Source: Candidatus Thermoplasmatota archaeon (GTDB lineage Archaea; Thermoplasmatota; Thermoplasmata; RBG-16-68-12; JAGMCJ01). From it: a DNA stretch of 33,749 nucleotides. The notes beneath the pieces are model-generated. The model saw only the letters and a program-made list of their open reading frames with translations, was not told the origin of the DNA and ran no database searches. Shown one piece after another: positions 17,241-33,749 of this stretch. Location: assembly GCA_022848865.1 (NCBI GenBank), contig JAJISE010000020.1:1-33749 (forward strand), read 5' to 3'. The translations under genes were made by a program, and so were the position numbers. Position 1 is the first letter of the stretch. Every line of letters starts with the position of its first letter.

Positions 17241-17264
17241 GCTTATATTACTTACCGTTCTTTG

Positions 17265-18648: not shown

Positions 18649-18688
18649 CTGGGCAACGCATGACGGTGTTGACCTATTAGGTGAAGGG

Positions 18689-19021
18689 ATGAAAGCACTA
18701 AGGAAGATTCCCATTTCCATTGGGTTCGTTCAGATTCCTTTGGAGCTATTCCATGCCAAGACCACGGACAAGCTCGATCTAAAGAGCCTGTGCAGTTGTG
18801 GATCGAGACCCAAGATGAGGATCGCCTGCCCCGACTGTCAGGAGGAATACACATCGTGGCAGAAAGTCCCCAATAGAGGCTATCCGATCTCCAAGAGCGA
18901 GTTCATCATCTTCTCGCAGGAGGAGTTGGAGAGCGTCCGCAACAACGCTCGGAAGTACGAGGCCAACGCCACGGAGAAGGCAGACGAACACCACGATGTG
19001 ATCCTGTGGTTCAACTGGTGA
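18689..19021 (+). CDS. Mini-Ku: protein matching only the N-terminal part of Ku
   Basis: A 110-residue protein whose first 85 residues read like the start of prokaryotic Ku, the ring-shaped protein that holds broken DNA ends in non-homologous end joining. The family opening ISFGLVNIPVKLY is matched by ISIGFVQIPLELF (residues 9-21). The cysteine block follows as CSCGSR (35-40) and CPDC (47-50), a likely zinc ribbon, then GYPISKSEFIIFSQEELE (64-81), matching the GYE...YVVLTDEELE of Ku. Normal Ku is about 250-300 residues; the ring-closing core and C-terminus are absent and the last 25 residues are charged and unrelated. ATG 18689 follows AGGTGA by four bases. No LigD is in the window. Confidence 0.72.
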   Translation: MKALRKIPISIGFVQIPLELFHAKTTDKLDLKSLCSCGSRPKMRIACPDCQEEYTSWQKVPNRGYPISKSEFIIFSQEELESVRNNARKYEANATEKADEHHDVILWFNW

Positions 19022-19057
19022 TGATAGAATGAGGAATCTAGCCTTGGAGAAAACACG

Positions 19058-19423
19058 ATGAGCCGACAACTCCATTCTGAGGATGAACCTACACCCATGC
19101 AGAAACAGGGGTGTCATAAAGCCACAAGACGACAACAGCACCAACATCAAGAAGCCACAGGGAGCGGGGGAGAAGGTAAGGGTGAAACTGCTCCCGCAGG
19201 AATCGAATCGAGACACCATAGACCTTCTCCCGATACCCTGAGTTCATACTGTCCCAGATGTGGAAGGTCGCCACTCAGGTCGGACAGGTCGAGAAGGGCA
19301 GGGTATTGTGGTATGTGCCTTCGAGATGATCCGACACTCCCGAGAAGTGGGTATGTCCCGCCTGAAGTCAGAGTTGAGGGTTATTGGCGGAACTACCTTG
19401 CGAGGATAGGTGAGCCTGGATGA
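19058..19423 (+). CDS. Zinc-finger protein with disordered N-terminus
   Basis: A 121-residue protein. The first 60 residues are rich in Gln, His, Gly and Ser and probably disordered. They are followed by a four-cysteine zinc finger, Cys65-x2-Cys68 (YCPRCG) and Cys84-x2-Cys87 (YCGMC), with an Arg-rich loop that could contact nucleic acid. A short conserved-looking tail (VEGYWRNYLARIGEPG) ends the protein. ATG 19058 has GGAG eight bases upstream. It is the second gene of the element operon, and its stop overlaps the next start as ATGA. Function is unknown; the setting suggests DNA binding. Confidence 0.65.
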   Translation: MSRQLHSEDEPTPMQKQGCHKATRRQQHQHQEATGSGGEGKGETAPAGIESRHHRPSPDTLSSYCPRCGRSPLRSDRSRRAGYCGMCLRDDPTLPRSGYVPPEVRVEGYWRNYLARIGEPG

Positions 19424-19521
19424 GTTTGGACAGCTTTGTTCAGATTCAGAAGAAGCCGAAGCGCGAGCCAGAGCCGAAGCCCAAGAAGAAACCCGAGGCT
19501 ACCCATGAGATTCGAGCTTGA
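19420..19521 (+). CDS. 33-residue Lys/Pro/Glu-rich peptide
   Basis: A tiny open frame that starts with ATG overlapping the preceding stop (ATGA) and has AGGTGA six bases upstream, so the initiation signals are good. The product begins MSLDSFVQIQKK and continues with a Lys-Pro-Glu run like a disordered linker. The N-terminal QxxL-like hydrophobic part could be a short interaction motif, but this is a guess. It ends at TGA 19519-19521, overlapping the next small frame. Confidence 0.45.
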   Translation: MSLDSFVQIQKKPKREPEPKPKKKPEATHEIRA

Positions 19522-19570
19522 AGGTCGATTGGAGTGCGTGAGAGAGGAAATCGAGGAGATGGTAAAATGA
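19505..19570 (+). CDS. 21-residue helical peptide
   Basis: A 21-codon frame beginning at ATG 19505 inside the preceding peptide and ending at TGA 19568-19570, which overlaps the start of the next gene as ATGA. The product is amphipathic and acidic (MRFELEGRLECVREE and so on), compatible with one helix. Its main support is the exact ATGA overlap; it may serve only to couple translation. Confidence 0.3.
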   Translation: MRFELEGRLECVREEIEEMVK

Positions 19571-19818
19571 ATGTCTGGATCGTGGTAGAGGTCTATCAGG
19601 GCGTGGTCAACGAGGTAAGAGCCTACGAGACCGAAGAGCTTGCGGAAGGTGTGGCAGGAACGTCTTTTGAGGAGCATCTTTCGGGTCATCAAGCCAACGA
19701 GAATGACCGTTGGATTCTCCAAGAGGATGATGCGAAAGAACCCTACGGAAGTTGTCCATGCGGGGAGTATGACATTCTCGTTTTCGAGTCGCCCGTTCAC
19801 GGAAAAGTCGTTAGGTGA
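19567..19818 (+). CDS. 83-residue protein of unknown function
   Basis: A small protein starting MNVWIVVEVYQGVVNEVRAY. Alternating hydrophobic residues in the first 20 positions suggest a beta hairpin, a helix follows, and a SCPCGEYD segment near residue 62 holds two cysteines. The start is ATG 19567, overlapping the preceding stop, with GAGGAG about ten bases upstream; a GTG at 19534 adds an unlike, Gly/Arg-rich N-terminus. Its own TGA is embedded in the AGGTGA ribosome binding site of the PCNA gene, so the two are translationally coupled. No family is recognised. Confidence 0.6.
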   Translation: MNVWIVVEVYQGVVNEVRAYETEELAEGVAGTSFEEHLSGHQANENDRWILQEDDAKEPYGSCPCGEYDILVFESPVHGKVVR

Positions 19819-19823
19819 TAGAA

Positions 19824-20597
19824 ATGGAAATCGTAATGGAAACGAACGTGCTGAAGGAGTTCGTGGGTGTGCTTGGCGTTCTTGTGGATGAGGCCAAGCT
19901 GGTATTCGAGAAGGACGGGGTAAAGACCTCATGCGTTGATCCATCCCACGTCGCCATGGTAGAGGCTTCCCTGAACATGGACGCCTTCGACCGCTATTCC
20001 GTAGAACCCATCGAGATGGGCGTGGACTTGGGCAAGATTCAGGAGTTTCTCGGAATAGGGAGAACCGACAGGGTGACGATTCGGCATGACGAGAAGAAGA
20101 ATCGCCTCGTCTTTGAGATGGGATACGTCACTCGCTCCGTGGGGCTTGTGGACGCGGCGGGATTCCCCGACCCCACGATTCCGAATCTGAATCTTCCCAA
20201 CACCGCGAAGGTCGGGGTCAAGTACCTGCGAGGGGGCGTAAAGGCATCTGGGCAACTGAGCGACCACATCGCTGTCCTGCTGAAACCAGAGGGATTCGAG
20301 ATGATCGCAGAGGGAGACACGGACGAGTCGGAGATGGTTCTCCCAAAGGATCTCCTCGATGAGATAAACGCCGAGCAGACTGCCAGGAGCTTGTTCCCGC
20401 TTGACTATTTCGCCAACATGGTGAAGGCGATCAAGAGCAAGACCGTGGAAATCCTTCTCGGAACCGATTACCCAGTCAAGATGAGATGGGATTTTGAAAG
20501 GAAGATTCCTGAATCCAGAGACGGCAAGGAGACGGTCAAGACGGTGATTGTCGGAAGCGGACTGTTCCTTCTCGCACCGAGGATCGAGAGCGAATAG
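19824..20597 (+). CDS. pcn: PCNA-type DNA sliding clamp
   Basis: A 257-residue sliding clamp, the normal length of archaeal PCNA. The DPSHVAMV segment (residues about 38-45) matches the conserved DPxHVAMV of the first domain. The central loop is present, and near the C-terminus are LDYFANMVKAI, GTDYPVKMRW and the terminal FLLAPRIESE, all in their expected order. The clamp encircles DNA and tethers polymerase, helicase-associated factors and nucleases. The start is ATG 19824, five bases after AGGTGA; an upstream GTG at 19815 overlaps that site. It sits in the element's operon just before an MCM-like helicase, so it is probably the element's own clamp rather than the host copy. Confidence 0.9.
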   Translation: MEIVMETNVLKEFVGVLGVLVDEAKLVFEKDGVKTSCVDPSHVAMVEASLNMDAFDRYSVEPIEMGVDLGKIQEFLGIGRTDRVTIRHDEKKNRLVFEMGYVTRSVGLVDAAGFPDPTIPNLNLPNTAKVGVKYLRGGVKASGQLSDHIAVLLKPEGFEMIAEGDTDESEMVLPKDLLDEINAEQTARSLFPLDYFANMVKAIKSKTVEILLGTDYPVKMRWDFERKIPESRDGKETVKTVIVGSGLFLLAPRIESE

Positions 20598-20621
20598 TCC
20601 ATCCATCCAGAAGGGATTGAA

Positions 20622-20774
20622 ATGGAGCAGACGAAACTGCGGAAGTGGATCGGAAGAGAGGTCATCGAGCAATCCGATGGACTCAGGAGAAGGAAGGGGC
20701 TGAGGAATCAGGCATACCTGGACAAGTGGTCGAATGAAGCTGAATCAGACGCTGAGCGAGAAGGTCATAACTAA
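20622..20774 (+). CDS. 50-residue basic protein
   Basis: A 50-codon frame between the clamp and the helicase, starting at ATG 20622 with a weak AAGGGA upstream and overlapping the first 41 bases of the helicase gene. The product is rich in Lys and Arg (MEQTKLRKWIGREVIEQSDG, then LRRRKGLRNQ), with a predicted helix, and could bind DNA or the clamp. It has no recognised family. Support comes from filling the gap in an otherwise gapless operon. Confidence 0.42.
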   Translation: MEQTKLRKWIGREVIEQSDGLRRRKGLRNQAYLDKWSNEAESDAEREGHN

Positions 20775-22311
20775 GTGGGTTCACGGCTTTGCGGAGCAAT
20801 TCCCAGATACGGATGTAGACCAACTCCTGGGTCAGGTTCTCGATGATTACAGCCACCAGGACTTCGACAGCCCATCGGACTTCATGGAGAACATCGTGAA
20901 GGACAGGTTTCCTGACCTCTTCGATTGGTGGTCTCGGAAGGACCAGAAGGACTATCAGCTTAGGGCTGAAGAGGAACACTATGAGGAGATAGAGAGGCAG
21001 GAGAGGTCTCACGGATTGAGCAAGCTGATCGATTCAAAGCCAGAGGTCGAAGAGAGCATAGCCGATGGAGTGGTTCGGGTGTGCGAGAAGAACGTCCTCT
21101 ACTTCGACCTGCTGAGCGAGGTCGCGGATCGCGAGGATGCCGTCCTTGAGAAGTTCGGCGGATTCCACGAAGAGGGCTTTCCCGCAAGACCCTTCGGATG
21201 GGAGGTCAAGGACATCGAGGGACTACAGCCCGGTCACGTCTCCTATCTCATTAAGATAGGGATCGTCGCCGACCCAGAGGTAAAGGGATACAAGAGCAAC
21301 AGGTATCGCCACTATCAGCTTGAGAGCCTGGACGAGACGAGGGAAGGGCTGAAGAGGTTCGCGGAGATTCAGAAGGAAAAGGAAGCTCAGGACAAGCTGT
21401 GGAGCAAGGGTGGATTCCTCCAAGGCATCGAGGTAACGGAGGAGGACGTCGAGAGGTTCAAGACGATCCTTCAGGAGAACGACGCCATCGAGTATTGGCA
21501 TCCGGCCATCGCTCCCAAGATAGTGGGAATGAGGGAGCAGAAGATCGCGATTCTCATATCCTGCGGTTCAACCGAGGACAAGTACGAGAACAAGAACAGG
21601 GTTCATACTCTGCTGTACGGCAAGCCCGAGACGGGGAAGAGCAAGGTGGACAACGTCATCGTCAAGCTCGGCGGCGGAAAGGCGTCCCTCAGAAGTTCCC
21701 AGGTCGGATTGACTGCCGATTGCTCCGGCTCCGACATGACCCTGGGAACGCTTCCGAGAAATCATAAGGGTGCCTGTTTCATAGACGAGCTTGACAAGTT
21801 CTCTGGACAGGATCAATCTGGCTGTCTGGACGCCATGGAGGAGGGAGAGATACCCATCGCCGTTGGGAAGATCCAGACGATCCTTCCAGCACAGACGATA
21901 GTGGTGGCAACTGCGAATGATGTAGAGAAGATAAAGCCAGAGCTTCTGAGCAGGTTCGATTTCGTCGTCAAATGCGACCTGCCATCCATGAGAGAGGCTC
22001 AGGAGATCAGCGATGACATGTGGGAATACTGGAATCTCCCGAAGGGCGTTGAGACGCTTGAACTGGCTAAGTTCCTCAAGTGGGTAAGGACGAGAGACCC
22101 CGAGCTTCCCAACGCTGTCAGGCAGAAGGCGAAGGACATCTCAAGGCAGTACATAATGTATTCGAGGGAGACGAGGCCGAGAAGGCTTGAGAGGATCATA
22201 AGGATAGCGTTGGCGATTGCTCGACTTAATTACAGGGATTGCTCGATTCAAGATGTCAATAGGGCTTTGGAGTTCATCAATGAAATCAAGCCGCAGGTAT
22301 CTGAGACCTGA
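20734..22311 (+). CDS. MCM-like AAA+ replicative helicase with non-standard N-terminus
   Basis: A 525-residue AAA+ protein whose C-terminal half is MCM-like. The lead-in HPAIAPKIVGMREQKIAIL is followed by Walker A GKPETGKS (296-303), GLTADC (325-330), Walker B with ACFIDELDK (347-355), the helix-2 insert DAMEEGEIPIAVGKIQTILPAQ, sensor 1 ATAND with Asn395, and the arginine finger LLSRFDF (404-410). These match MCM motifs in order. The 250 N-terminal residues lack the OB-fold and zinc-binding ring of normal MCM and instead look helical, with a possible winged helix near 160-205. It would unwind DNA at the element's origin. ATG 20734 lacks a strong ribosome binding site, so the start is less certain. 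Confidence 0.85.
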   Translation: MKLNQTLSEKVITKWVHGFAEQFPDTDVDQLLGQVLDDYSHQDFDSPSDFMENIVKDRFPDLFDWWSRKDQKDYQLRAEEEHYEEIERQERSHGLSKLIDSKPEVEESIADGVVRVCEKNVLYFDLLSEVADREDAVLEKFGGFHEEGFPARPFGWEVKDIEGLQPGHVSYLIKIGIVADPEVKGYKSNRYRHYQLESLDETREGLKRFAEIQKEKEAQDKLWSKGGFLQGIEVTEEDVERFKTILQENDAIEYWHPAIAPKIVGMREQKIAILISCGSTEDKYENKNRVHTLLYGKPETGKSKVDNVIVKLGGGKASLRSSQVGLTADCSGSDMTLGTLPRNHKGACFIDELDKFSGQDQSGCLDAMEEGEIPIAVGKIQTILPAQTIVVATANDVEKIKPELLSRFDFVVKCDLPSMREAQEISDDMWEYWNLPKGVETLELAKFLKWVRTRDPELPNAVRQKAKDISRQYIMYSRETRPRRLERIIRIALAIARLNYRDCSIQDVNRALEFINEIKPQVSET

Positions 22312-22529
22312 TAGCGTGGGTCTGCTGGGCGAGAGATTCCTTCACGGTCATCCACATTGAAAAAAGGACAATCACAATCGTTCCAAAACCTTGCCCCAAA
22401 TGCAACCTGATAACAAAGCCACAGGTAGGCTCTCCATTTGTGCAGTCCGATTCTCAACGCTGAGTAGGTCGAGTTCTCACTTATGTTGAATCAGTCTTCA
22501 GGCGACAATGGAAGGAGAACATGGGTATT
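22312..22529. other. Spacer after the helicase gene, no convincing gene
   Basis: This 218-base stretch between the helicase stop and the HEPN remnant is moderately AT-rich. A plus-strand frame crossing it could encode a short peptide with a PKPCPKCN motif around 22388-22411 but has no start codon. This may be a decayed zinc-finger gene. I found no tRNA, no hairpin of note and no match by eye to the sequence upstream of the integrase, so no att site is called. Confidence 0.4.
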
Positions 22530-22850
22530 TCAGGTGCTGGCTGCTTGACGGCCTTTCTTCTTCATGTCTTGGACGACATCAGTGATGGTTGCGGCCACTT
22601 GGAGGAATAGGCTTTCCGCTTCCCTCTTTGAGAAGATTCTGTCTGGATGCTCGACCATGTTTCTGTTCTCCCGTACGAAGTCCAGGTGCCCCATCAAAGT
22701 TCTTTTCACCCTGTACTTCAGCTTTCCTGGTTCTCGCTCAGTCAGGAGCTCGTCGATAATCGACTTCCATCCCTTCCTGGAGGGTTTCTTCCTTGTCTTG
22801 CGCTGGTAGTACCCCCTCAAGACTTCCTCCGTAGCCCGAAGCGCGGTCAT
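22530..22850 (-). pseudogene. HEPN-domain gene, 5'-truncated
   Basis: A 106-residue frame matching the C-terminal half of HEPN-domain proteins seen near toxin and defence genes. It starts with ALRATEEVLRGYYQRKT, which in complete relatives lies in the middle of the protein, after a region ending in a similar MRATEE segment. It contains the HEPN-type R-x4-H signature as ENRNMVEHPDRIFS and a following helix. The upstream half is missing; its place is taken by the antisense of the CARDB-type gene. The nominal ATG at 22850 is therefore probably accidental. HEPN proteins are often RNases or their inactive relatives. I treat this as a remnant, though a shortened active product cannot be excluded. 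Confidence 0.6.
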
Positions 22851-22869
22851 CGCCGATGCGGTCGGCCTG

Positions 22870-24177
22870 GTGAACCGGCTGTACGCGCGTGTGCGAAATA
22901 TGGGGGATGCGACGGCGACTGATGTTCAAGTCCACTTCGAGGTCACGGACCCATTGGGCGTAGGGATTGGGGGTTCCAACGGCTTCGTGCTGCTGGGAAG
23001 TACGTCCGTCCCGGTCATCGACGCCGGAGATTATGCGGACGTATACATCGAGTGGACGCCGGACGTGGTTCTGAGCCCGGACCAGATCGAGGAAGGGTTG
23101 TTCCAATTCCATTCATGCGTACGGGTGATTCTTGACCCCGTAGTGGGCGAAACCGTGTTCGGGAATCAAGACGGAGTCGAAGAGCAGGAGAACATCGACC
23201 TCTTCCAGGCCCCGGAGGCCCCGAGTCCAGGAGAGGCGTTCGATGAGGTGCTCACCCTCCGGAACGACGAAACGAATCGCCCAAAGGACTTCCACCTCAC
23301 ATACGCAGGCGATGTGCCTGCGGGCTGGTCAGTCGACATCAATGGCGGGAACCTCTTGGTCCAACTCGGTCCGGGCGAAGTCCGTGACATCCCGATCCGC
23401 ATCGAGCCGGTAAGTGGTTCGCCGCTGGGCAGTTCCTTCAAGGTCGAAGTGACGGCCTCCAGCTTCCGCGCCCTCGTCAGCGACCTCAACATCTCGGACG
23501 TACACTTCGAGTTCACGCCACTGGGCGGCGTGACCGTAGAGGCCCGCGTAGTACGGAAGCCGATGATCGTGGCGACGGCGGTCCTCACACCGAACGGCAT
23601 CCTCGTCCGGGGCCGTCTCGACGTCGCAGACTTTTCGACTTTCTATGACCCGAACAACCCATTCCGTGTGATGATCGTGGGGTCGGATGCGAACAAGACG
23701 TTCCTCCCGCCTACCGGTGTCGTCCTGACCGTCAAACCCGACGGGAGCTTCGAGGGACTCCTACCCCTGCCCATACCCGAGCTCACGGAGCTCGTCTGCC
23801 TGTTCTCGGGCACGATGCTTCTGTCCAGTGCGTCCTGCGGCTTCATCCCGCTCTTCCCGGAAGAGGTCAACGCGACCCTGAAGCTCACGCCGCGGACGCT
23901 GAATCTGAAATCGAACGGGCGTTGGGTGACCGCCAGGCTGACCCTCAGCACGGACGTAGCTTGGATGGTCGATCCCTCGTCTCTGGAGCTCGAAGGAATC
24001 GCCGCACATAGGGTGAAGGTCCTCGACGACCGAACCCTTCAGGTGAAGTTCTCCCGCGAGGCCCTCATGGCACTGCTTTCACCGGGCGATGTGACGGTCT
24101 GTGTAAGTGGCTCGCTGACGGACGGACAGACGTTCAGCGCGTGTGACACGATTCGCGTGATTCAATCTGGAAGATGA
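22870..24177 (+). CDS. CARDB-type exported protein fragment, 5'-truncated
   Basis: A 435-residue frame built of beta-rich extracellular domains. It opens with NRLYARVRNMGDATATDVQVHF, characteristic of the inside of a CARDB/Ig-like domain, followed by a second Ig-like domain (residues about 120-215, with AGWSVDIN and LGPGEVRDIPI) and a third region ending near residue 435. There is no signal peptide, although such domains normally sit at the C-terminal end of large exported peptidases or adhesins. The frame is open back to 22810 without a better start, so GTG 22870 is nominal. The sequence is more GC-rich than its neighbours. It is best read as the 3' part of a larger gene cut off at about 22,855. 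Confidence 0.68.
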   Translation: MNRLYARVRNMGDATATDVQVHFEVTDPLGVGIGGSNGFVLLGSTSVPVIDAGDYADVYIEWTPDVVLSPDQIEEGLFQFHSCVRVILDPVVGETVFGNQDGVEEQENIDLFQAPEAPSPGEAFDEVLTLRNDETNRPKDFHLTYAGDVPAGWSVDINGGNLLVQLGPGEVRDIPIRIEPVSGSPLGSSFKVEVTASSFRALVSDLNISDVHFEFTPLGGVTVEARVVRKPMIVATAVLTPNGILVRGRLDVADFSTFYDPNNPFRVMIVGSDANKTFLPPTGVVLTVKPDGSFEGLLPLPIPELTELVCLFSGTMLLSSASCGFIPLFPEEVNATLKLTPRTLNLKSNGRWVTARLTLSTDVAWMVDPSSLELEGIAAHRVKVLDDRTLQVKFSREALMALLSPGDVTVCVSGSLTDGQTFSACDTIRVIQSGR

Positions 24178-24270
24178 GAGGTCGACCCTGAGACAATCAA
24201 CAGGGAGGTATGTCCGCACAGCTGATAGGAAGGCAATCACTGAAATGGGCCACGGAAATGGGGCTCCTCC

Positions 24271-24624
24271 TCAGTAGACGGGAACGGACTGTGATACTTG
24301 CATGGCGGGAACGTCTTCGAAGGAATTGACGTTCTCCTGTGGTCGAAGGCGTTCCGCGACCTCTTTGCAGAGCTGGGACATCCTCTCGTGACCCGCCAAC
24401 GCATAAATGGTGGCCTTCAGCCTCCAAACGGATGGGTAGTTCGTTCTTCTCTTAGTGACCTGGTTGAGGCAGTAGAGGGCCTGCTTGTATTTCTTCAGCC
24501 CTGCAAGAATAACACCTTTCGAGAACCAAGCATCTACATCCTCAATATCGCTCTCCAGTCTCTTCTGACACGTCTGTAGGAGTCTGATGATTATCTCCAG
24601 GCGGGCATGCTTGTTGCTCATCAT
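24271..24624 (-). CDS. TPR-repeat protein, second of a tandem pair
   Basis: A 117-residue helical protein with about two TPR units: DAWFSKGVILAGLKKYKQALYCL and a second spanning PSVWRLKATIYALAGHERMSQL. TPRs mediate protein contacts; no catalytic site is visible. It aligns by eye with the gene just upstream (24682-24975): D-[VL]-DA-x-F-x-K, then the shared T-K-R, Y-P and LKA-x-IY positions. The last 25 residues are low-complexity and not shared. The ATG is at 24624 or 24621, without a clear ribosome binding site. Confidence 0.68.
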   Translation of the reverse strand: MMSNKHARLEIIIRLLQTCQKRLESDIEDVDAWFSKGVILAGLKKYKQALYCLNQVTKRRTNYPSVWRLKATIYALAGHERMSQLCKEVAERLRPQENVNSFEDVPAMQVSQSVPVY

Positions 24625-24681
24625 CCAGTAATCATTCTCGGAAACGATATTCCTTTTCTTACAGAAATCAAAAGTGATAGG

Positions 24682-24975
24682 CTATCTGGATTCCTCCTCA
24701 GCCCTTTCCAGACAGAGTCTAGCCATCTTCTCATTCCCCAGCTGTCTATATATCTTGGCCTTGAGCATCCAGATCCCTGGATAGAAGGGATCTCTCTTTG
24801 TGATTGTCTCCAGGGTTTCGATGCACTTCTCGTATTCCTCGGATGTCGCCAGCCAAGCGGCCTTGGCGAACAGAGCGTCCAAGTCGTGAGGATTCTCCTG
24901 CAGCCTCCTTCGGCACTGCCGCTGCCAGTACACGGGGTGGTCCCAATCCCTCTGTCCAGTGCCGTTTTCGGACAT
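24682..24975 (-). CDS. TPR-repeat protein, first of a tandem pair
   Basis: A 97-residue protein with two TPR-like helix pairs (DALFAKAAWLATSEEYEKCIETLE and PGIWMLKAKIYRQLGNEKMARLCLERAEEE). The start is taken as ATG 24975; a GTG at 24987 is possible. It is the upstream member of a two-gene same-strand pair with a related TPR protein 57 bases downstream. The pair is divergent from the KAP-macro gene and may share a control region with it, so a partner role to that protein is possible but unproven. Confidence 0.68.
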   Translation of the reverse strand: MSENGTGQRDWDHPVYWQRQCRRRLQENPHDLDALFAKAAWLATSEEYEKCIETLETITKRDPFYPGIWMLKAKIYRQLGNEKMARLCLERAEEESR

Positions 24976-24987
24976 TGTCGCTCTCAC

Positions 24988-25374
24988 TCGCCCAGCTTGA
25001 GGAGCTGAGGATGTCTTTCGAAAGAGCCTATATCTTTCTTATCGAGCTGTTATCAAACGCGATAACGGGATTGCCGGAAAGAACCTACGTCGTCCAATTC
25101 CACGGTTCCCAGGAACTCAAAGTAACTCCAACGCCAACAGCGGAAACGTCTCACTTCTTCTCGAAGAACGACACTCTTGTGAAGTGGTCAGTTAGCGAGG
25201 GGCCACTCGCTCGGACGATGGATGCAGCTTCATCGCAGCAACCATCGATATGTATAAATCGGAGAGTCGTTCTTTGGCTCCTTGACGAGATCTCAGCTGC
25301 GGAGGGAGGTTTCGATCGCATAGACTCTTGCGCCGTTGGAGAACCTGAGGATTCGTACACGTGGGGGGATATCT
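24988..25374. promoter_or_regulatory. Divergent control region of the TPR pair and the KAP gene
   Basis: About 390 bases separate the divergent starts. On the plus strand a TATA-like TATAAAT lies at 25253-25259, giving a KAP leader of roughly 90 bases. At 25049-25066 there is a perfect inverted repeat, GTTATC and GATAAC around six bases (AAACGC), which could be an operator. Open frames cross the stretch on both strands but none looks like a protein family. Confidence 0.4.
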
Positions 25375-28314
25375 GTGGAGGAGCGCGTCCAGGCGGATTG
25401 GGAGAAGGTCGAACGTGTCAGAAGAGAAGCCGAAGCGGATCTGCTGAAACTGCCAGGCGTAACAGGCGTGCACATAGGCTACAAGACCGTCAATGGGAAG
25501 AGAACTGACGAGCTAGCAATCGTCATTTCCGTCAAGGAAAAGAAACCAGTGACGGAGCTTCCCAAGGAGGATATCCTTCCCAGAGTGATTCAGGGGATTC
25601 CAACCGATGTCATTGCGGACGAGTATGTACCGCATTTGAGACCTCTAGTGCAATACAACCTCATCTCAGAGAACGAGAGTTCTATTTGCATTGGCAGCAC
25701 CGACGCTCCGTGGGCTATGGATGTAGATGCTTTGGTTGTTCCTTTCGACATTTCGGGATTCGGCTCGCTAGGACCGGCCATAATCAAGCACTTGGAGGCC
25801 ATTGACCCCTCTTTGGCGTCCGACTTCGAATTGGCGTTCGATGAACCCTCGGTCAGGGAGGCTGTCAAGCCTGATAGACCTCGCCTTGTATCGTTTCCGT
25901 TTAACCCGGATCTGGAGCTGCCTTCAGGCTTCCCGCAGGTTCTCATCGCCGCGACAGCCCACCACGAAGGAAAGTGGTCCATCTACAACTCCCGGAAAGC
26001 CGCCACGGCAATCGTCAGGATGGCTGCAGACATGAATCTCGACAGCATTGCCATCCCACTATTAGGGAGCGGGGTGGGCCCCCTTCCTCGCGCGGAGGTG
26101 GCCATGGCGATAGTTGATGGGGCGCTCAAAGCTCTGACAACTTCGCAGGTTCCAGAAATCAACATAGTTACACTGGACCCGAAGGTAGTCGCAGTCGCGA
26201 GGGAGACCTTCGCGAAACGCCCAGGGATGTATGGTCAGGCACTCAATAATGACGATGCTACAGGAGAGGACTTACTGGACATCTCAACTGAAGTGCATGC
26301 AATGGCCGACGCAGTTATGTTGCAGGACCTCAGTCCCCCCTTCGTCGTTGGCATACTCGGTGGATGGGGGAGTGGGAAATCTTTCGTCATGCATTTGCTA
26401 CGGCAGAGGATGAGGCAGATTCGGGCAATGAGACTGAAAGAGGAGGAGACCTGGAACGATGACCCTGAGAAGCGCTCTTTATACGTCGGGCATGTCTACT
26501 TCGTCCGCTTCGACGCCTGGACTTACGCGAAATCCAATCTCTGGGCCAGTCTGATGGACAGGATCTTCTCCGACTTGAACGACCAGCTAACCTTGGAGGA
26601 GAAGCAGATTGAGGGAGTGGATGCCGAAGTCAAGCACCCGACTGAGCCTTTGTGGTCTCATCTCCAACGGCTGACAAGGACAGAGCGCGAAGATCTTGAA
26701 CAGAAGGTTATAGGGCTGGCATTGAAGCAAGACGCTCTGGTGTCGACCGAGACGGGTTTTCTCAGATCGGCTTTCAGCGAAATAGTGAGCCTGCCAAAGA
26801 AGTGGTCAATGGCCAAGCCAGCTGAGTCGGCAGGATTTGCAGCTCTGTCAGCAGTCTCGACCCTCCTCCCTCTTGTGGAGGGCTCCCTGGCTTATTTCAA
26901 AATCCACGGCCTAACGGCATCTATTCTCTTGGCACTCCTGGGTTTTGCTCGAGCAAGGGTCAACTGGGCTCGGCGACGAGGACGAATCGCACTGACAGAC
27001 AAGGATTTGTCAGACGGGGGTCGGGCTCGGCTTGCCAATCTCAAGTCCCAATTGCCAGAATTGAACCCCGACCAACTCCAGCTGGTGTTCAAGAGGAGTG
27101 AGGCCAAGAGAAGAGCCGAGAAACACCAGGCAGACCTATGCGAATTAGAGGAGTTGGAAACCGAAGTTGAGAGCCGGAGGCAGAGGATTGGCATGACCGC
27201 CGAGTTCGCCTCTCTAAGGGAATTGATAGATGCAAGAAAGGACGAAAATGTGTATGAGAAGCGGTTGGGGCTGATGCACCAAGTCCAAAAGGATTTTTCC
27301 GATCTGAGTCGTAGCCTGGTTGTCAGCAAAACTGACCCCAGAGACGAGGTGGAAGAGAAGCGGAAACTCTTCCCCCGAGGACCCGCGCGCGTAGTCCTAT
27401 TCATTGACGACTTGGACCGTTGCCCACCGAAGAGGGTGGTTGAGGTTTTGGAGGCGGCTCAGCTGCTCGTAAAGACGGAGCTCTTCGTGGTCGTCTTAGC
27501 GATGGATGTTCGGTACATTACACGGGCTTTGGAGAAGGAATACAAAGAGATTCTCGTCAGGGGAGGAGATCCCTCGGGCCTTGACTACGTTGGGAAGATT
27601 GTCCAGTTGCCATATCGCCTGCGACCCATTGACGAAGACGCCCTGGATTTGTACCTGAGGAGGCAAGTTGACGTGGAAGAAGTGATTCGTGAAACCAGAC
27701 CACCTCGAGACCAGGTCCCAAATCAGGAAGAAGGAGGTCAGGGGACACCCACGGAGCCATCTGTCAGAATAGAAGGCCCCCCTCGAGAGGATCTTACCCG
27801 GGACGTTCTTAGATTCTCATCCTCGGAGTTTGACTTGTTGAAGAGGTGCTGCAAAGAGCTGAGCCTGAGCCCCCGCGCCGCGAAACGACTCACCAACATC
27901 TACAAGCTGCTCAAGATCATCTGGACCAGGACCCTTAGACCAGGATACGATGACGAGCAAGTCGCCATCTACCTGCTGGCGATGTCCGCCCGCTTCCCTG
28001 AGATCATGCGAGGAGCTTTTGATGCGCTCGAGAGGAAGCTGAAATCTCCGACCATTGAGAATTTGGCTAGTTTCCTCAAGACTCTTGCGGTCACGGACCC
28101 TAGTGCCGGCTCACCTCAGGACTGGCAGCATCTGCTTGAGATACTGAAGGACTCAGATGGACTGGCCAAGTGGTTGACAGTTAGTGCGATCAGTCCCGAA
28201 TCCTTCAGGCTCGTTCGATCCTTCTCTTTCGTGGGGGACATCGGATTCGAACCGGGTGATCGAACAGGCAAGCGCCCGCTGATCCCTGCAGAAGAGACGG
28301 GCCCAGGGCCCTAG
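25375..28314 (+). CDS. Macro domain-KAP NTPase fusion protein
   Basis: A 979-residue multidomain protein. Residues about 5-75 form a module (LPGVTGVHIGYKTVNGKRTD, then the IPTDVI motif) otherwise typical in front of trypsin-like proteases. Residues about 100-290 look like a macro domain, with DALVVPFDISGFGSLGPAI and IAIPLLGSGVGPLPRAEVA, which would bind ADP-ribose-type ligands. A KAP P-loop NTPase follows: Walker A LGGWGSGKS near 327, VRFDAWTYAKSNLWASL, two membrane segments near 485-530 as usual in KAP proteins, a coiled coil, and Walker B VVLFIDDLDRC near 673. GTG 25375 follows GGGGGGAT; TTG 25336 is an alternative. It probably acts at the inner face of the membrane as a ligand-sensing NTPase. 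Confidence 0.85.
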   Translation: MEERVQADWEKVERVRREAEADLLKLPGVTGVHIGYKTVNGKRTDELAIVISVKEKKPVTELPKEDILPRVIQGIPTDVIADEYVPHLRPLVQYNLISENESSICIGSTDAPWAMDVDALVVPFDISGFGSLGPAIIKHLEAIDPSLASDFELAFDEPSVREAVKPDRPRLVSFPFNPDLELPSGFPQVLIAATAHHEGKWSIYNSRKAATAIVRMAADMNLDSIAIPLLGSGVGPLPRAEVAMAIVDGALKALTTSQVPEINIVTLDPKVVAVARETFAKRPGMYGQALNNDDATGEDLLDISTEVHAMADAVMLQDLSPPFVVGILGGWGSGKSFVMHLLRQRMRQIRAMRLKEEETWNDDPEKRSLYVGHVYFVRFDAWTYAKSNLWASLMDRIFSDLNDQLTLEEKQIEGVDAEVKHPTEPLWSHLQRLTRTEREDLEQKVIGLALKQDALVSTETGFLRSAFSEIVSLPKKWSMAKPAESAGFAALSAVSTLLPLVEGSLAYFKIHGLTASILLALLGFARARVNWARRRGRIALTDKDLSDGGRARLANLKSQLPELNPDQLQLVFKRSEAKRRAEKHQADLCELEELETEVESRRQRIGMTAEFASLRELIDARKDENVYEKRLGLMHQVQKDFSDLSRSLVVSKTDPRDEVEEKRKLFPRGPARVVLFIDDLDRCPPKRVVEVLEAAQLLVKTELFVVVLAMDVRYITRALEKEYKEILVRGGDPSGLDYVGKIVQLPYRLRPIDEDALDLYLRRQVDVEEVIRETRPPRDQVPNQEEGGQGTPTEPSVRIEGPPREDLTRDVLRFSSSEFDLLKRCCKELSLSPRAAKRLTNIYKLLKIIWTRTLRPGYDDEQVAIYLLAMSARFPEIMRGAFDALERKLKSPTIENLASFLKTLAVTDPSAGSPQDWQHLLEILKDSDGLAKWLTVSAISPESFRLVRSFSFVGDIGFEPGDRTGKRPLIPAEETGPGP

Positions 28315-28512
28315 GTCTGGCTTGGGAGTGTGCGCAGCCACGCAGGCGGGTCCGCCGAGTACTTCAGCTTCTGGTTCGTCGGCAGGAACTACGGCTTCTT
28401 CGGCTACACCCAGCCGCCGATGGGCTCGCCCATCGACATCGTCGTGGACCTCGGAACGCCGGAGAGCTTCGACTCGTGGACCATCCAGATCAAGCTGAAT
28501 GCGAGAGGGTGA
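28315..28512 (+). pseudogene. 3' remnant of an exported-protein gene
   Basis: Directly after the KAP stop, an open frame without a proper start (from about 28315, nominal GTG 28330) encodes about 65 residues rich in aromatic and Gly residues: AEYFSFWFVGRNYGFFGYT, then IDIVVDLGTPESFDSW and a WTIQIKLNARG end with a natural stop at 28512. It is GC-rich and beta-strand-like, resembling the C-terminus of an exported protein. A short oligo-T terminator follows. It is unlike the KAP protein and is best read as the tail of a gene whose front was removed by rearrangement. Confidence 0.55.
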
Positions 28513-28551
28513 AGGGAACTGAATGAACGGCCCTGCGGGCAGCTCTGTCAG

Positions 28552-28558
28552 TTTTTTT
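28552..28558 (+). terminator. Oligo-T terminator
   Basis: A run of seven T lies 40 bases after the remnant stop, preceded by a small GCCC/GGGC hairpin at about 28530-28540. Archaeal RNA polymerase terminates at such T-runs, so this probably ends the KAP transcript. Confidence 0.5.
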
Positions 28559-28829
28559 GGTTGCACTCCCCTTTTCTGTGAGGGTGCTGGACGCCAAAGT
28601 GTATCAATAGAATGATATTGACCACCATGGTGGGGGCCGGCTTTCTCTTGACAATGGGAATGACTCAATCGAATGCAAGACAGCAGGGGCCCTGGAATCA
28701 TCACAACATGTCGTACTCCTCATTGAAGAACGCCATTTGTTCTCTGGGTGTCTATTGCTCATGTATTTCTCCCCCGAACTCTCGCGAAGCGTGTTAATAA
28801 GTCCAGCTTCTCTGAAAGAATCAAGAGAG

Positions 28830-28835
28830 TATAAG
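28830..28835 (+). promoter_or_regulatory. TATA box for the two-TM protein gene
   Basis: TATAAG is centred about 28 bases upstream of ATG 28860, fitting a leaderless transcript and helping to fix that start over the longer open frame. Confidence 0.6.
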
Positions 28836-28859
28836 TTGGTGAACGATGATGACTGTCGG

Positions 28860-29582
28860 ATGTCTGACGCTAACGCTGGATTGGACAGATTGCTCGACGA
28901 GGCCCAGAAGCTAGCTAACGACTATGAAGAAGCTCTTGAGCGATATGTTCAAGGAGCCGAGTCAAAAAGACTTCTTGCTGGTTTGGTAGTAGACCATTTC
29001 GAAATCCCAGAGAAACTTAGCAGTTCTGGGCTGAAGCTCTTCCTTCAACGATGGGAGGCAACGCCAGAGAGCAAAGCATTGCGCGCACGCTTTCATAGTA
29101 CATATGACCGGGTCAAGCAGTACCTAGGGACAGTATCGACAAGAACAAAGGCCGTTCGTTGGCCAGGGAACAGCGGTAGGCTATTGGAAAAACTCAAGCC
29201 TGTGAATGACGCGGTTAGGACAGACACAAAGATTCGCAGGCTTGTCAGTGCTTTGGAGAACATTGATCTACTGGACCTCACATTCAATGATGATTTGCCC
29301 CGCAGAAGACCAAGGCAACGGTCAGGGACAAAGTCTCCGGCACCTCACCAAGATTCCTTGACTGCGCTGAAAAGCTCAGTGGCAGAACAACGGGCATGGA
29401 GCCTTGTGGCCATATTCGTCACAGTAGTGGTCACTGTAACTGTAGGACTAGGTGTCTCAACTTCCTTTGGATGGTTTTGGGCATTCAGTATGGCCTTCCT
29501 TCTGGGCATAGTAATCACTGTAGCGGTCGCTCTCACGAGGCCATTATGGATTCGTGCTCTCGGACGACCGCGACGCAAGTGA
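28860..29582 (+). CDS. Cytoplasmic helical protein with C-terminal two-TM anchor
   Basis: A 240-residue protein of no recognised family. Residues 1-130 are strongly helical and charged (LDRLLDEAQKLANDYEEALE and on), followed by a basic Arg/Pro-rich linker near 150 (RRRPRQRSG) and two membrane helices at about 176-198 and 202-225, ending in a basic tail. The layout, a soluble sensor followed by a two-helix hairpin, is common in membrane-acting effectors of conflict systems, but that role is inferred only from shape and neighbourhood. The start at 28860 is supported by a TATA box about 28 bases upstream; the longer frame from 28737 contains no plausible extra domain. Confidence 0.65.
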   Translation: MSDANAGLDRLLDEAQKLANDYEEALERYVQGAESKRLLAGLVVDHFEIPEKLSSSGLKLFLQRWEATPESKALRARFHSTYDRVKQYLGTVSTRTKAVRWPGNSGRLLEKLKPVNDAVRTDTKIRRLVSALENIDLLDLTFNDDLPRRRPRQRSGTKSPAPHQDSLTALKSSVAEQRAWSLVAIFVTVVVTVTVGLGVSTSFGWFWAFSMAFLLGIVITVAVALTRPLWIRALGRPRRK

Positions 29583-29819
29583 CATGACCGAGAGAGCTGA
29601 GATAGAAGTTGAAGAAAGTCTCAAGAAATTCCGTACTTCAACATGGAGGACGACAACTACCATCACGATGGTATCGGGTTGCCAATCTTCGGCGGTATCC
29701 TCCCACAAGAGCGCGAGATTGATGCACCAAGGCAGAGAACCTCCATCGCTGGCTGACGGTGGCCTTTGGCATGGAGTCCGGCTTGGATTGAGAGGCTTCG
29801 TGTTAAGTGAGTTCTTTGT
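29583..29819. other. Spacer between convergent genes, possible gene debris
   Basis: Two short plus-strand frames cross this 237-base gap. One starts at ATG 29584 (80 codons, acidic helix then low-complexity Thr). The other, open from about 29625 to 29756, reads PYFNMEDDNYHHDGIGLP, followed by an FGGILPQE segment, and looks more protein-like but has no leader signals. They may be remains of a decayed gene. Neither is supported well enough to call. Confidence 0.35.
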
Positions 29820-30800
29820 CTAAGCTATGGAAAGATGCCTCGTATGTTTGTCAAGGGCACCTATGAATAGCTGTTCGGAGAACCCCGCCACGACGCCAGT
29901 GCTCATGAGAACGAAAGCGTTGTCGTGTAGAAGTTGCGAGATATCTTGACCAGCGACCAAACCAGACCCTGCAATCAGGAAGTATACAAGAGCACCGGCT
30001 GCCCCGAGCAAGATACGCGTGAGTGTTAGGACATTGATCAGACCAGCAGAGGTCTCCTTCTCGATGAACTCACGTGTCAGCAACTGAGTGCTCAGAACTC
30101 CGCCAAGGAGACCCATCAAGGAAATGGTGAAAAACGGGAGATACCACCACGGGTCCGTAGGACGAATGACGGTGTGATACAGCCACTCGGCTAGGATAAT
30201 CGATGCGACCAAGATTGTCAGAAGCCTGGCGTTGAAGGCGCTCCAAAGGCAGAATCTTAGTGTCGTGTTGCTGTTGATGTCATACCAGAATCTGGCGCGC
30301 TGGGACTGCAGTTCGTACGCTGACTGCACCAATAGCTCATCCGGATTGGATTCCTTGGTCTTTTCGCGTCCCTCTCTCTCCTGTATCATACAGTCCACTC
30401 TTTTCCCAGTCTTCCCGAGTTCATCTCTGGCTTTCTCGTCCAGTTCTTCGAGCCTCTTGTCCCAGAAGGCCATTCGATACAGAGACCTTGGAATATCTGC
30501 ATCATCGACAATCAGCGGCAGTATCTTGTCGGCTGAGTTGACGTAGTTCCAGGCGCGACCGGGGTTTCGTTCCTCTTTCGCAAGGTCCAGATAGCCTCGT
30601 ACAGCCGCATATCTGTGCTCCTTCTTCAGGAACTCAACATCTTCATAGCGGTCCACCTCGTGACGACAGATGAACACTTCTCTCGAAACTATCGCCAGTC
30701 TGACGCGATTCGTAAAACCCTGGACAGTACACCAGTCATGATATATCTCAGGGATGGGAAGTCTCCAGAAAGGGTAGCTCAATCTCCGGTACGTTCGCAC
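29820..30800 (-). CDS. Multi-TM membrane protein, start region disrupted
   Basis: A 326-residue frame with a soluble N-terminal part of about 190 residues and a C-terminal membrane domain of four or five helices (near residues 191-208, 219-240, 258-280 and 295-310), ending in a GFSEQLFIGALDKH segment. Such an endpiece recurs in uncharacterised prokaryotic membrane proteins. No catalytic motif is seen. The nominal start is GTG 30800, but coding-like sequence continues upstream in the same frame for about 40 codons (RDDRLIGQIEIRLDRLIEEK) with no usable start, then apparently in a shifted frame. The real gene therefore probably began further upstream and is broken. Confidence 0.6.
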   Translation of the reverse strand: MRTYRRLSYPFWRLPIPEIYHDWCTVQGFTNRVRLAIVSREVFICRHEVDRYEDVEFLKKEHRYAAVRGYLDLAKEERNPGRAWNYVNSADKILPLIVDDADIPRSLYRMAFWDKRLEELDEKARDELGKTGKRVDCMIQEREGREKTKESNPDELLVQSAYELQSQRARFWYDINSNTTLRFCLWSAFNARLLTILVASIILAEWLYHTVIRPTDPWWYLPFFTISLMGLLGGVLSTQLLTREFIEKETSAGLINVLTLTRILLGAAGALVYFLIAGSGLVAGQDISQLLHDNAFVLMSTGVVAGFSEQLFIGALDKHTRHLSIA

Positions 30801-31021
30801 AAGTAAGCCATCATCCTGCCTGAGCTCCTTTTTCTTCTCTTCAATCAGGCGGTCGAGTCGAATCTCTATCTGCCCTATGAGTCGATCATCTCGTTCAGAT
30901 TTGATCGTATTCCCCCTGACGTGTCGTCAACGACCTCGACCACAAGTGAACCGAAAAGCTGGAAGTGTCGGAGATTGTCGGCAACGTGGAAAGCGAATCC
31001 ATGCCTGACAACCTCAAATGG
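30801..31021 (-). pseudogene. Frameshifted 5' end of the membrane-protein gene
   Basis: Two overlapping frames look coding here. The first runs from directly after the nuclease stop to TAG at 30875-30877 and reads EVVRHGFAFHVADNLRHFQ, then SLVVEVVDDTSGGIRSNLNE and MIDS. The second, shifted by one base, reads DRLIGQIEIRLDRLIEEKKK and leads in frame into the downstream membrane protein. Joining them at about 30880-30890 gives a continuous amphipathic helix (NLNEMID then RLIGQIEIRL). Neither has an ATG, GTG or TTG in a sensible place. This suggests a frameshift plus a lost start, or a sequencing error. Confidence 0.5.
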
Positions 31022-31984
31022 TCACCATGGAACCCTGAAATTGCCACGGATTGGGGCATGGTCCGACCCCGGAAACTTCAGGTCAGTCGCAAATGCCAGG
31101 CTCTCGTCGTGGAGTGTCTCATTGTATATCTCCGTGTCGATCCAGTACGGGATGAGCGCCTGCGACACGACCAAGTGGTCCAGCATGTTGCCCTTCCCAT
31201 GATGAATGAGCGAGTAGCGCTTATCTCGCGGAACGTTGAGCTCACAGGGGATAAGCACTCCGGTGCGGAGGGCCTCGTTCTGGGTGTCTTCCACGCTCCC
31301 CACGATCGCCTTGAACGGAACGGAACCGACCTCGGCGTTGAAGTCTCCCCCCACGACAATCAGAGCATCGTCGCCATCCTCGTCGAAGATCTGGTCTATC
31401 AGAATGCGCGTCTCCAGCGCCTGCCCAACACGCTTCACGTCCGAGATGTAGTATCCTTCTGCCCAACCCTGGTGGGAGAGCCAGAGCCAATATTTGTCCT
31501 CGTGCCTTTGACCCTTCACATAGGTCGGGTTCATCGATTTAAGATGAAGGTTGATCACGTGCAGAGTGTGGTCCCCGCTCAGCCGCACCTTGGAGTGCAG
31601 AATCGGACGCTCCCAGCTAAGTCGCTTCGCCTCATCCTCTTCAGGGAGGCTGGTGATCTTTCTCCATTCTGGCGGGTCGGCCAGGTCGTTCCTGTACTGT
31701 TTCGTCTCCACGATGGTTTTCTCACTGAGAATCACGAGGTTCCGATACCTGTACGGCTTTCCCGATGATGGGCTGACCGTATGTGCACGATTATACCGCT
31801 CATAGCTCGTCCCCTTGAGCAGGTCGTCCAGGGCTGTCAGGCTGTGGACCTCCTGCAAGAGAAGGACGTGAGCCCCAATCTTTTCCAGCATCCGCCCAAG
31901 CACCTTCTTGCGCACGGTCCACAGATTGGAGTCCGTGTCCTCCAGATTCTCCACGTTGAACGTGGCAACCACCAAGTCTTTCAT
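31022..31984 (-). CDS. Endonuclease/exonuclease/phosphatase family enzyme
   Basis: A 320-residue EEP-fold, Mg-dependent phosphoesterase. The catalytic residues are all in place: Asn10 in TFNVENL, Glu45 in LLLQEV, His147 in NLHLKS, Asp204 and Asn206 in GGDFNA, an Asp-His pair in MLDHLVVS, and Asp308-His309 in SDHAPI. It has no signal peptide, so it acts inside the cell, on nucleic acid or a small phosphoester. ATG 31984 is chosen because the conserved core starts at once; the frame extends upstream to 32080 without family-like sequence. It lies 65 bases downstream of the papain-like protease gene on the same strand and is probably co-transcribed with it. Confidence 0.88.
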   Translation of the reverse strand: MKDLVVATFNVENLEDTDSNLWTVRKKVLGRMLEKIGAHVLLLQEVHSLTALDDLLKGTSYERYNRAHTVSPSSGKPYRYRNLVILSEKTIVETKQYRNDLADPPEWRKITSLPEEDEAKRLSWERPILHSKVRLSGDHTLHVINLHLKSMNPTYVKGQRHEDKYWLWLSHQGWAEGYYISDVKRVGQALETRILIDQIFDEDGDDALIVVGGDFNAEVGSVPFKAIVGSVEDTQNEALRTGVLIPCELNVPRDKRYSLIHHGKGNMLDHLVVSQALIPYWIDTEIYNETLHDESLAFATDLKFPGSDHAPIRGNFRVPW

Positions 31985-32049
31985 CTTATCACATCCAATT
32001 CCTATGCCATATCCTTCCAGCGAAGCGGGTCCTTTGCATACAAGTCTCC

Positions 32050-33051
32050 CTAGATGCCAAACTTCTTCGTGTCCACCCATTCCATGCTCAATAAGGACCA
32101 GAAATCCAATGCCAGCTTGTCAATGACGAAGTCGTATGGTATCCATCCGTATCCGTTGTCTCCCCAGGCCTTTCCCCAGGAGTTGCGTATCAAAAACGCG
32201 CCTTTGGTCTTTTTGGTACACTCGTCGTTCTCGATCTTCTTGTTGTCGTCGTAACCCACTGCGACTACTGCATGTCCCCACAGGGCATGATCACGTGGGC
32301 AAGGATAGGGAATCTCGCCATCGTTGTAGGGCATAACATAGGTGTTTCCCTCGTAATGCCCGTACTCAAATCCGTAGAATCCGAACATTGAGGGTATGCC
32401 CATTGCGAGATAGAGCTTCACAAGAAAAAGCACCAGGGAGGTGGGTCTGGACGCAGCCTGGGGATCATGGCAGAAGTACTTGAGGGCCTCGTAGTTGTCG
32501 GCCACCGCATAGACAAAGGAGGGCGGTTCCTCATCGAATTCTGGGTCGCTGTCCGTATACGGCCAGTACCTCTCCGGTGCACATCCACAAAGCACCAATG
32601 CCCCCATCGTGTTTCGGATCCAGGCACCTGTGTCTCCCGTAACACCCATCAAGTTTCTGGTCGTTTTGTAGACAAAGAGACGGGAACCATCGATATGCCT
32701 CTTGAAGCCTCGTCTCTCGAAGTACTCGACTATCCCCACGGCTGCCTGTGCAGTGCATGAACCCAAGCCTCCCTGGTTCTCAATCGGCGAGCAGTGTTTC
32801 CTCAAGTCCTTCTTGGGCGGTAGAAAAAACGGGTTCCCCATGTATAGCTTGACATGTTTCTTTGGCGGCGAGGAAGCCAGTTTCTTCACCACCGTGGCAA
32901 TCTTTGGAGAGTAGCCCACCTTCTTTGCCATCTTGGCGATCTCCGGATGATCTATTGTGTAGTCGCGCAGATCTGGCAACGGAGGGATCCATCCCGTACC
33001 GACGGTATCCCTCGCTCCAGGTCTCTCCACATGTTTATAAGCGGAATACAT
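32050..33051 (-). CDS. Cytoplasmic papain-like (C1) cysteine protease
   Basis: A 333-residue C1-family protease. The oxyanion-hole Gln93 and nucleophile Cys99 are in IENQGGLGSCTAQA, the catalytic His260 in LWGHAVVAVGYDD, and Asn290 in FLIRNSWGKAWGDNGYGW, so all catalytic residues are present. The SCTAxA form is typical of the prokaryotic branch. About 85 residues precede the core, perhaps a short pro-like segment, but there is no signal peptide, so it is predicted to be intracellular. ATG 33051 follows GGAGGTG by four bases. It heads a pair with the EEP enzyme. Its substrate is unknown; intracellular papain-like proteases also occur as effectors in conflict systems. Confidence 0.9.
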   Translation of the reverse strand: MYSAYKHVERPGARDTVGTGWIPPLPDLRDYTIDHPEIAKMAKKVGYSPKIATVVKKLASSPPKKHVKLYMGNPFFLPPKKDLRKHCSPIENQGGLGSCTAQAAVGIVEYFERRGFKRHIDGSRLFVYKTTRNLMGVTGDTGAWIRNTMGALVLCGCAPERYWPYTDSDPEFDEEPPSFVYAVADNYEALKYFCHDPQAASRPTSLVLFLVKLYLAMGIPSMFGFYGFEYGHYEGNTYVMPYNDGEIPYPCPRDHALWGHAVVAVGYDDNKKIENDECTKKTKGAFLIRNSWGKAWGDNGYGWIPYDFVIDKLALDFWSLLSMEWVDTKKFGI

Positions 33052-33189
33052 CACACACCTCCGGTACAGTTCTCTGCGACTCGGTACTTAAGCCTTCATT
33101 TTTCTCCTGAGGAGAATACTGCACGCTTGAATTGGCCGACTGAGAATGGCCCTCCAAATGGCCAAGACCCTCTCTTCCCCAGCTCCCTC

Positions 33190-33732
33190 TCAAGCTTCTT
33201 GCTCTCCCCCTCGATCCAATAAGCGTCGGCGCTCAGGCCGAGACTCCACTTCCTTTTCGACCTTCTCCAGGAGCCACTGTGGAATACTCGGCTGGTTCGT
33301 GGCAACCTCATTCCATTTATCGGCAAGCTCCTTCAAGGAATCCTCAAGCTCCTTCCGCGAGCTGGGGGGATTGGCCAACTTTATTTCTGCCAATCGCTTG
33401 ACGCCCCCGAACAGGATGCCCATTTGACGGTGGCGCTCTGCCCTCCTAGGGTAATCAAGGTAGTTCTGCAGAGCAGCTGAAACCACAGCGACGAAGGTGA
33501 GGAATCCCGCTAGCACCTGCAACCAGTAGATGGGGGATGATGTCAAGTTTGCAAACACTGAAGTTCCAGCAACTGCCGTCACAGAAACTGAAACTACACC
33601 CAAAGCAAACCCATGCCTCTTGAACTACTCGGCAGTCTCCCAGTGCGCTCTGTTCACAACCCTAAGCTTCTTGAACCAAACCAAGACCTCCTCCGTTGCA
33701 TACTTCTGAAACTCTTTCGTACTTACAGCCAT
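33190..33732 (-). pseudogene. SLATT-domain two-TM protein gene with in-frame TAG
   Basis: Reading from ATG 33732 (preceded by GTGGTG) gives a full-length SLATT protein of 180 codons except for TAG at codon 36 (33625-33627). Before it: KEFQKYATEEVLVWFKKLR and HWETAE; after it: FKRHGFALGV, two membrane helices (about 45-65 and 70-92), then YPRRAERHRQMGILFGGV, the hallmark segment of SLATT domains, and a SIPQWLLEKV tail. SLATT proteins are two-helix membrane effectors linked to nucleotide-signalling defence systems. The stop falls inside a conserved stretch, so this looks like a complete gene with one nonsense change. A shorter product from TTG 33603 is possible but would lack the N-terminal segment. 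Confidence 0.68.
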
Positions 33733-33749
33733 ACCACCACTTTTCTCTC

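Follow-up and report, generated by a model that had tools for sequence, protein, structure and literature searches.

What might explain why, in one archaeal gene, a module that usually heads trypsin-like proteases stands in front of a macro domain and a KAP NTPase? The window, the whole stretch of DNA that was analysed, is the complete contig 20 (33,749 bases) of a draft genome of 2.03 Mb in 136 contigs that is 96% complete. Its MCM and PCNA genes point to an archaeal host. The gene encodes a protein of 979 amino acids in a single frame that stays open across both domain junctions, starting at a GTG preceded by GGGGGGA at 25363-25369, with an upstream TTG at 25336 as a possible alternative start. 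This frame, its coordinates and the order NAL1_N-like module, macro domain and KAP NTPase had been predicted from the DNA alone, and all were borne out by reading of the open frames and by domain scans (Table 1). The best reading is that the protein is a new architecture among known KAP conflict switches. The novelty first ascribed to the fusion as a whole belongs to the NAL1_N cap, seen nowhere else, but not to the macro-KAP core, which is shared with seven bacterial homologues; all three parts together are known from this contig alone.

Table 1. Features of the fusion gene and its surroundings (positions are those of the window unless another locus is named)
Feature	Position	Strand	Basis
DNA not shared with same-genus genomes, mobile-element-like island	17213-33749		synteny breaks at 17212, GC drop
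Tyrosine integrase, probable start 17266	17266-18458	+	Pfam Phage_integrase 3.5e-13; PHROG integrase 2.6e-23
PCNA paralogue	19815-20597	+	Pfam/PHROG
Divergent second MCM helicase	20734-22311	+	Pfam/PHROG
NAL1_N-macro-KAP fusion protein, 979 aa, whole gene	25375-28314	+	single intact frame, GGGGGGA 5' of GTG
NAL1_N-like module, residues 1-90	25375-25644	+	blastp, PHROG; Pfam below cut-off
Macro-fold domain, degenerate pocket, residues ~92-285	25648-26229	+	profile, AF2 and Foldseek; alignment for pocket
Walker A, GGWGSGKS, residues 329-336	26359-26382	+	alignment of 23 sequences
Predicted TM hairpin in KAP insertion, residues ~483-529	26821-26961	+	hydropathy; AF2 helices
Walker B region, VVLFIDDLDRC, residues 673-683	27391-27423	+	alignment of 23 sequences
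Protein with helical N-terminus and two strong TM segments, no known family, 3' of the fusion gene, likely start ATG 28851	28851-29582	+	Pfam, hydropathy
Protein with about 3-4 TM segments, no known family	29820-30800	-	Pfam, hydropathy
Endonuclease/exonuclease/phosphatase-family protein	31022-32080	-	overlaps papain-family protease gene
Papain-family (C1) cysteine protease	32050-33054	-	Pfam PF00112 1.3e-11
SLATT-like 2TM protein, in-frame TAG at 33625-33627	33190-33732	-	sub-threshold SLATT_4
GH25 lysozyme domain before divergent macro segment and KAP	L059, 7251-11054

The N-terminal module

In blastp, the first 90 residues align with the N-terminal ends of trypsin-like proteases from archaea of the same order, with E-values down to 2e-15, and the PHROG 'protease' profile matches residues 23-101 at 1e-14. 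The Pfam NAL1_N match (E 0.0014, 18.8 bits) lies below the cut-off of 27, and AF2 confidence is poor across this part in the models of residues 1-300 and of the full-length protein. In the archaeal blastp relatives the module is followed by the protease motifs SNNH and GDSGS, and all 23 other NAL1_N copies examined (18 archaeal and five from plasmids, the latter each followed by protease-type sequence) sit on trypsin-like proteases, as had been foreseen for the module. Two of the plasmid proteases, from Gemmatirosa and Paraburkholderia, have long C-terminal extensions. The 979-residue protein has the N-terminal module in common with the NAL1-type trypsin-like proteases (Pfam PF25608 and PF25819), but Pfam detects no trypsin-like catalytic domain behind it, and macro-KAP takes its place. 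The module is typical of the same archaeal order, and its position before macro-KAP is unique to this protein among the NAL1_N copies and macro-KAP homologues examined. A sequence search of the PDB found no NAL1_N structure. A search of the 96%-complete host genome found no second NAL1_N copy that could act as homotypic partner, as the logic of EAD-type systems would require.

A macro fold with a degenerate pocket

With the single sequence as query, the Pfam Macro match reaches 17.7 bits, below the cut-off of 22. A profile of eight homologues retrieved a PDB list whose top is filled by macro domains, with macroH2A1.1 (4e-10) and PARP14 between 4e-10 and 8e-10. In the AF2 model of residues 1-300 the pLDDT of the macro part is mostly 80-96, and Foldseek matched the model to macro structures at 7e-10, with a TM-score of 0.75 normalised to macroH2A1.1, a match repeated by the full-length model. 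As judged from profile and predicted structure, the macro fold is secure.

In macro domains the Asp of GD(I/L)T, the Asn of NPAN, the GGG loop (GGGVAGAI) and the GSG phosphate loop hold adenine, ribose and phosphate. Alignment with canonical archaeal macro domains from the same phylum (L030, L032-L035 and L156-L161) indicates that the first three are lost in the 979-residue protein and in the other macro-KAP proteins, that is, in the whole family, whereas the canonical domains keep them. The phosphate loop (GSGVGPLP) is kept in the 979-residue protein and degraded in some macro-KAP relatives. The protein therefore has the fold and the phosphate loop in common with macroH2A1.1, PARP14 and MacroD, but has lost their ADP-ribose specificity and catalytic residues, and because of these losses a role as an ADP-ribose reader or hydrolase is unlikely, though the domain may bind another ligand. 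The first interpretation of this gene was that of a sensor for ADP-ribose-type signals; in that reading the macro domain would be a working ADP-ribose binder or hydrolase through which the protein answers NAD-derived signals. The macro fold, the retained phosphate loop and the plasmid KAP relatives that adjoin SIR2 and DarT-macro genes are in keeping with it, but the family-wide loss of residues that canonical archaeal domains keep makes such a sensor quite improbable.

The KAP unit

The KAP NTPase assignment is beyond doubt: the Pfam KAP_NTPase match (1e-31) scores 110.8 bits against a cut-off of 20, and both Walker motifs are intact, with G329, W331, G332, G334, K335 and S336 and then D678, D679, L680, D681, R682 and C683 invariant among the 23 aligned sequences. 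Kyte-Doolittle peaks of about 1.5 at 488-506 and 505-523 denote modest hydrophobicity, and AF2 places helices of low confidence at 483-502 and 511-558; the weakly hydrophobic hairpin in this region may anchor the KAP unit in the membrane. The KAP P-loop NTPase family (Pfam PF07693) includes PifA, Tmn, QatA and Kidins220, and the protein shares with it the Walker motifs and a KAP domain above cut-off; the predicted hairpin may correspond to the TM segments inserted in the NTPase unit of the family. To our knowledge, none of these four is joined to a macro or NAL1_N domain. No KAP structure was found in the PDB by sequence search. The KAP-type PADLOC models QatA, PDC-S20 and PifA match the protein (best 1.4e-14), but unlike in Qat systems, a PADLOC scan of nine further proteins of the window found no Qat partner. 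Phages are blocked by Tmn, which is a KAP protein that has two TM domains and whose mechanism is unexplored (PMC11846954).

Relatives and their distribution

Genome contigs were scanned with a KAP alignment as query and the best 80 loci were retained. A macro-like segment precedes KAP in seven of these, all bacterial (Chloroflexota, Cyanobacteria, Myxococcota and Actinomycetota): L038 from Chloroflexi, L039 from Nostoc, L040 from Calothrix, L059 from Anaerolineae, L069 from Myxococcales, L081 from Nocardia and L085 from Amycolatopsis. Scans of genome contigs and viral contigs with the single sequence returned nothing, although the alignment query did find relatives. The macro segment is very divergent in L059 and L069, and the N-termini vary, with EAD7 in L038 (2.2e-23), GH25 in L059 (4.3e-34) and no recognised domain in L039, L040, L069, L081 and L085. 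L038 is the closest homologue among the best 80 loci (35% over 109-962), with the architecture EAD7-macro-KAP. No phage relative was found; a KAP match on a viral contig, which covers 296-861 only and is without the macro part, was rejected.

A quick KAP tree places the window protein in a group of 19 rows (SH-aLRT 100) with rows from Chloroflexota, Gemmatimonadota, Myxococcota and Cyanobacteriota. Since L081 and L085 fall into a separate actinobacterial group, the macro-KAP fusion may be older than both groups, or may go back to several origins or transfers. Full-length profile matches are confined to one of 390 genomes of the window's phylum, the host genome itself, and to one of 292 in the Cyanobacteria sample and one of 350 in the Chloroflexota sample, both of them query genomes; four genomes of the same genus have no match to the whole protein. 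A literature search outside subscription sources found no publication that names a pairing of KAP NTPase and macro domain.

Conflict systems and housekeeping neighbours

The Chloroflexi genome that encodes L038 contains 28 EAD7 matches, and of those examined several lie on nSTAND, NACHT-FGE and TPR proteins and others on proteins with no further assigned domain. In the passages of Kaur et al. on EAD-coupled NTPase systems (PMC7159879, PMC8195603), a swappable N-terminal module sits on an NTPase core, as in macro-KAP, and a KAP ATPase can replace STAND (PMC8195603). The closest homologue carries a described adaptor of this kind, in a genome with further copies of it. In contrast to these systems, the adaptor of the 979-residue protein is NAL1_N and not a described EAD, its genome holds no second copy, and it is found on an archaeal element; macro-KAP is not named in those passages. 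The same macro type occurs without KAP in two cyanobacterial genomes. One has a locus with VMAP-C (7e-38), a MoxR-like AAA protein and a protein in which macro is joined to GUN4 repeats and a C-terminal vWA; the other encodes macro-GUN4-DO-GTPase2. VMAP, MoxR and vWA are the components of the ternary systems described by Kaur et al. (PMC7159879). Among the plasmid relatives, L027 from Sinorhizobium is a TIR-KAP gene adjoining DarT, macro and SIR2 genes, L024 is a KAP protein beside SIR2 and a nucleoside deoxyribosyltransferase, and L025 is WD40-KAP. At L069, the macro-KAP frame shares a few bases with a gene whose match to ORC-CDC6 is below cut-off (E 0.0019), and a pairing of Orc/CDC6 with KAP has been described (PMC10853773).

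The neighbourhoods tell less of conflict. Among genes up to about 8 kb away from the seven bacterial macro-KAP genes, a descriptive survey saw no defence-island enrichment. The 78 neighbouring proteins belong mainly to transport and metabolism families, and the strong PADLOC matches among them come from very few proteins; a protein kinase or TnpB-like gene might also draw the same PADLOC names. Because these neighbours are mostly housekeeping, operon-level defence association of macro-KAP is weak. The conflict or stress-signalling logic of the original prediction is supported by the architectures of relatives (EAD7-macro-KAP, TIR-KAP and the macro type of the VMAP-MoxR-vWA locus) but not by their neighbours: the enrichment next to defence genes for which it proposed a test was not seen, and neighbours that are only housekeeping genes, which it held would tell against it, were found in part.

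Those housekeeping neighbours, the degenerate macro pocket and the lack of a partner NAL1_N protease in the host genome would also suit a non-immune signalling or envelope-stress NTPase that was moved horizontally by chance, with macro and NAL1_N as structural or scaffold domains. We regard this as rather unlikely, as the very patchy distribution of the full-length protein and the ties to EAD7, TIR and VMAP systems fit conflict genes better.

The island

Two genomes of the same genus are colinear with the window, with 93% and 89% DNA identity beside the break, and synteny with both stops at the same base, 17212/17213 (TGTTTATC). Beyond it one genome (G002) continues with unrelated genes and the contig of the other (G001) ends exactly there. 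This position is likely to be an integration site. GC falls from about 0.58 to 0.50-0.56 in the island, with one segment near 0.60; repeats marking the island ends were looked for and not found. A stronger MCM match (1.1e-90) is present on contig 5 of the same genome, and with its PCNA paralogue and second MCM the element seems to supply replication proteins of its own. Small open frames follow the integrase gene, one of which (18638-19021) has a weak Ku beta-barrel match (3.7e-4, below cut-off). From the synteny break, the integrase, MCM and PCNA genes, the fall in GC and the absence of a same-genus match, it is probable that the fusion gene is carried as cargo by an integrated element, which on the right extends past the end of the contig.

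Could the NAL1_N cap or the whole island be a misassembly of the draft genome? The NAL1_N-macro junction is on a single contig and replicated nowhere else, and the break coincides with the G001 contig end. Nevertheless, one 979-codon frame spans both junctions, macro-KAP adjacency recurs in seven genomes, NAL1_N belongs to the repertoire of the same archaeal order and the break is closely followed by an integrase gene, all of which make an artefact very improbable.

The context also invites a comparison with PifA, in which the KAP protein would be an exclusion or maintenance factor that shields the integrated element from competing elements or from viruses and not a part of host immunity. The gene follows an integrase and lies with the element's own MCM and PCNA beyond the synteny break, the PifA profile matches at 3.4e-12, and several KAP relatives are on plasmids. 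However, the best match to PifA is limited to the P-loop region that both share, no element context of this kind was seen in those parts of the bacterial chromosomal loci that were searched for it, and the contig does not reach the island's right end; we consider this explanation fairly unlikely.

Downstream of the fusion gene, the adjacent protein with two TM segments is a possible partner of the fusion protein, and no plasmid relative of it was found. The papain-like protease that had been noted nearby is confirmed by Pfam. The SLATT neighbour noted with it is present as a SLATT-like 2TM frame, but the SLATT_4 match is sub-threshold (0.015 as an open frame, 0.005 when read through the TAG), and the interruption may reflect a decayed gene, a sequencing error or read-through.

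A proposed membrane conflict switch

We favour, at about even probability and in a broad sense, a membrane-anchored conflict switch, anti-invader or stress-related, on an integrated archaeal element; any specific output is less probable than that. The KAP ATPase would be kept off at the membrane, with the macro domain as a built-in regulatory ligand or contact domain whose phosphate loop is retained and whose ADP-ribose specificity residues are not. The N-terminal slot, which in bacterial relatives holds EAD7, GH25 or no recognised domain, would be filled here by NAL1_N, which might sense a cue or bind a partner, perhaps as it does ahead of NAL1-type proteases. On a trigger, the KAP unit would hydrolyse ATP and rearrange at the membrane, perhaps together with the neighbouring 2TM protein, and the membrane would be harmed or the cell arrested, so that the invader is blocked. 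We infer trigger, ligand and output, as well as regulation by macro and NAL1_N and an effect on membrane or dormancy, from domain content and relatives.

The conflict switch is preferred because Walker A and B are intact, because the closest homologue is EAD7-macro-KAP in a genome rich in EAD7 and the same macro type occurs in the VMAP-C/MoxR/macro-GUN4-vWA locus, and because there are TIR-KAP and WD40-KAP relatives and plasmid copies beside SIR2, nucleoside deoxyribosyltransferase, DarT and macro genes. The gene also lies on genus-foreign DNA beside an integrase, KAP-type PADLOC models match it, a KAP ATPase is named as a replacement for STAND in EAD systems (PMC8195603), and Tmn blocks phages (PMC11846954). 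Counted against it are the housekeeping neighbours, the single NAL1_N, the lost ADP-ribose pocket, the modest hydrophobicity of the TM hairpin and the restriction to one contig.

Macro-KAP proteins thus form a small family of scattered occurrence, in which the macro pocket is degenerate and the N-termini are exchangeable. One member is on an archaeal integrated element, and the family is linked to conflict systems of the EAD and VMAP types. A further idea, speculative and unlikely as it stands, gives NAL1_N the part of a hitherto unnoticed adaptor that links trypsin-like proteases to a membrane switch of the macro-KAP type. The archaeal and bacterial proteases of the NAL1 type would then be members of a larger conflict network, and the macro domain would have been adapted to bind something other than ADP-ribose. 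NAL1 proteases shape rice plant architecture and maize flowering, and their first domain is little understood. If NAL1_N does act as an adaptor, the archaeal fusion would provide a testable idea for what that first domain does.
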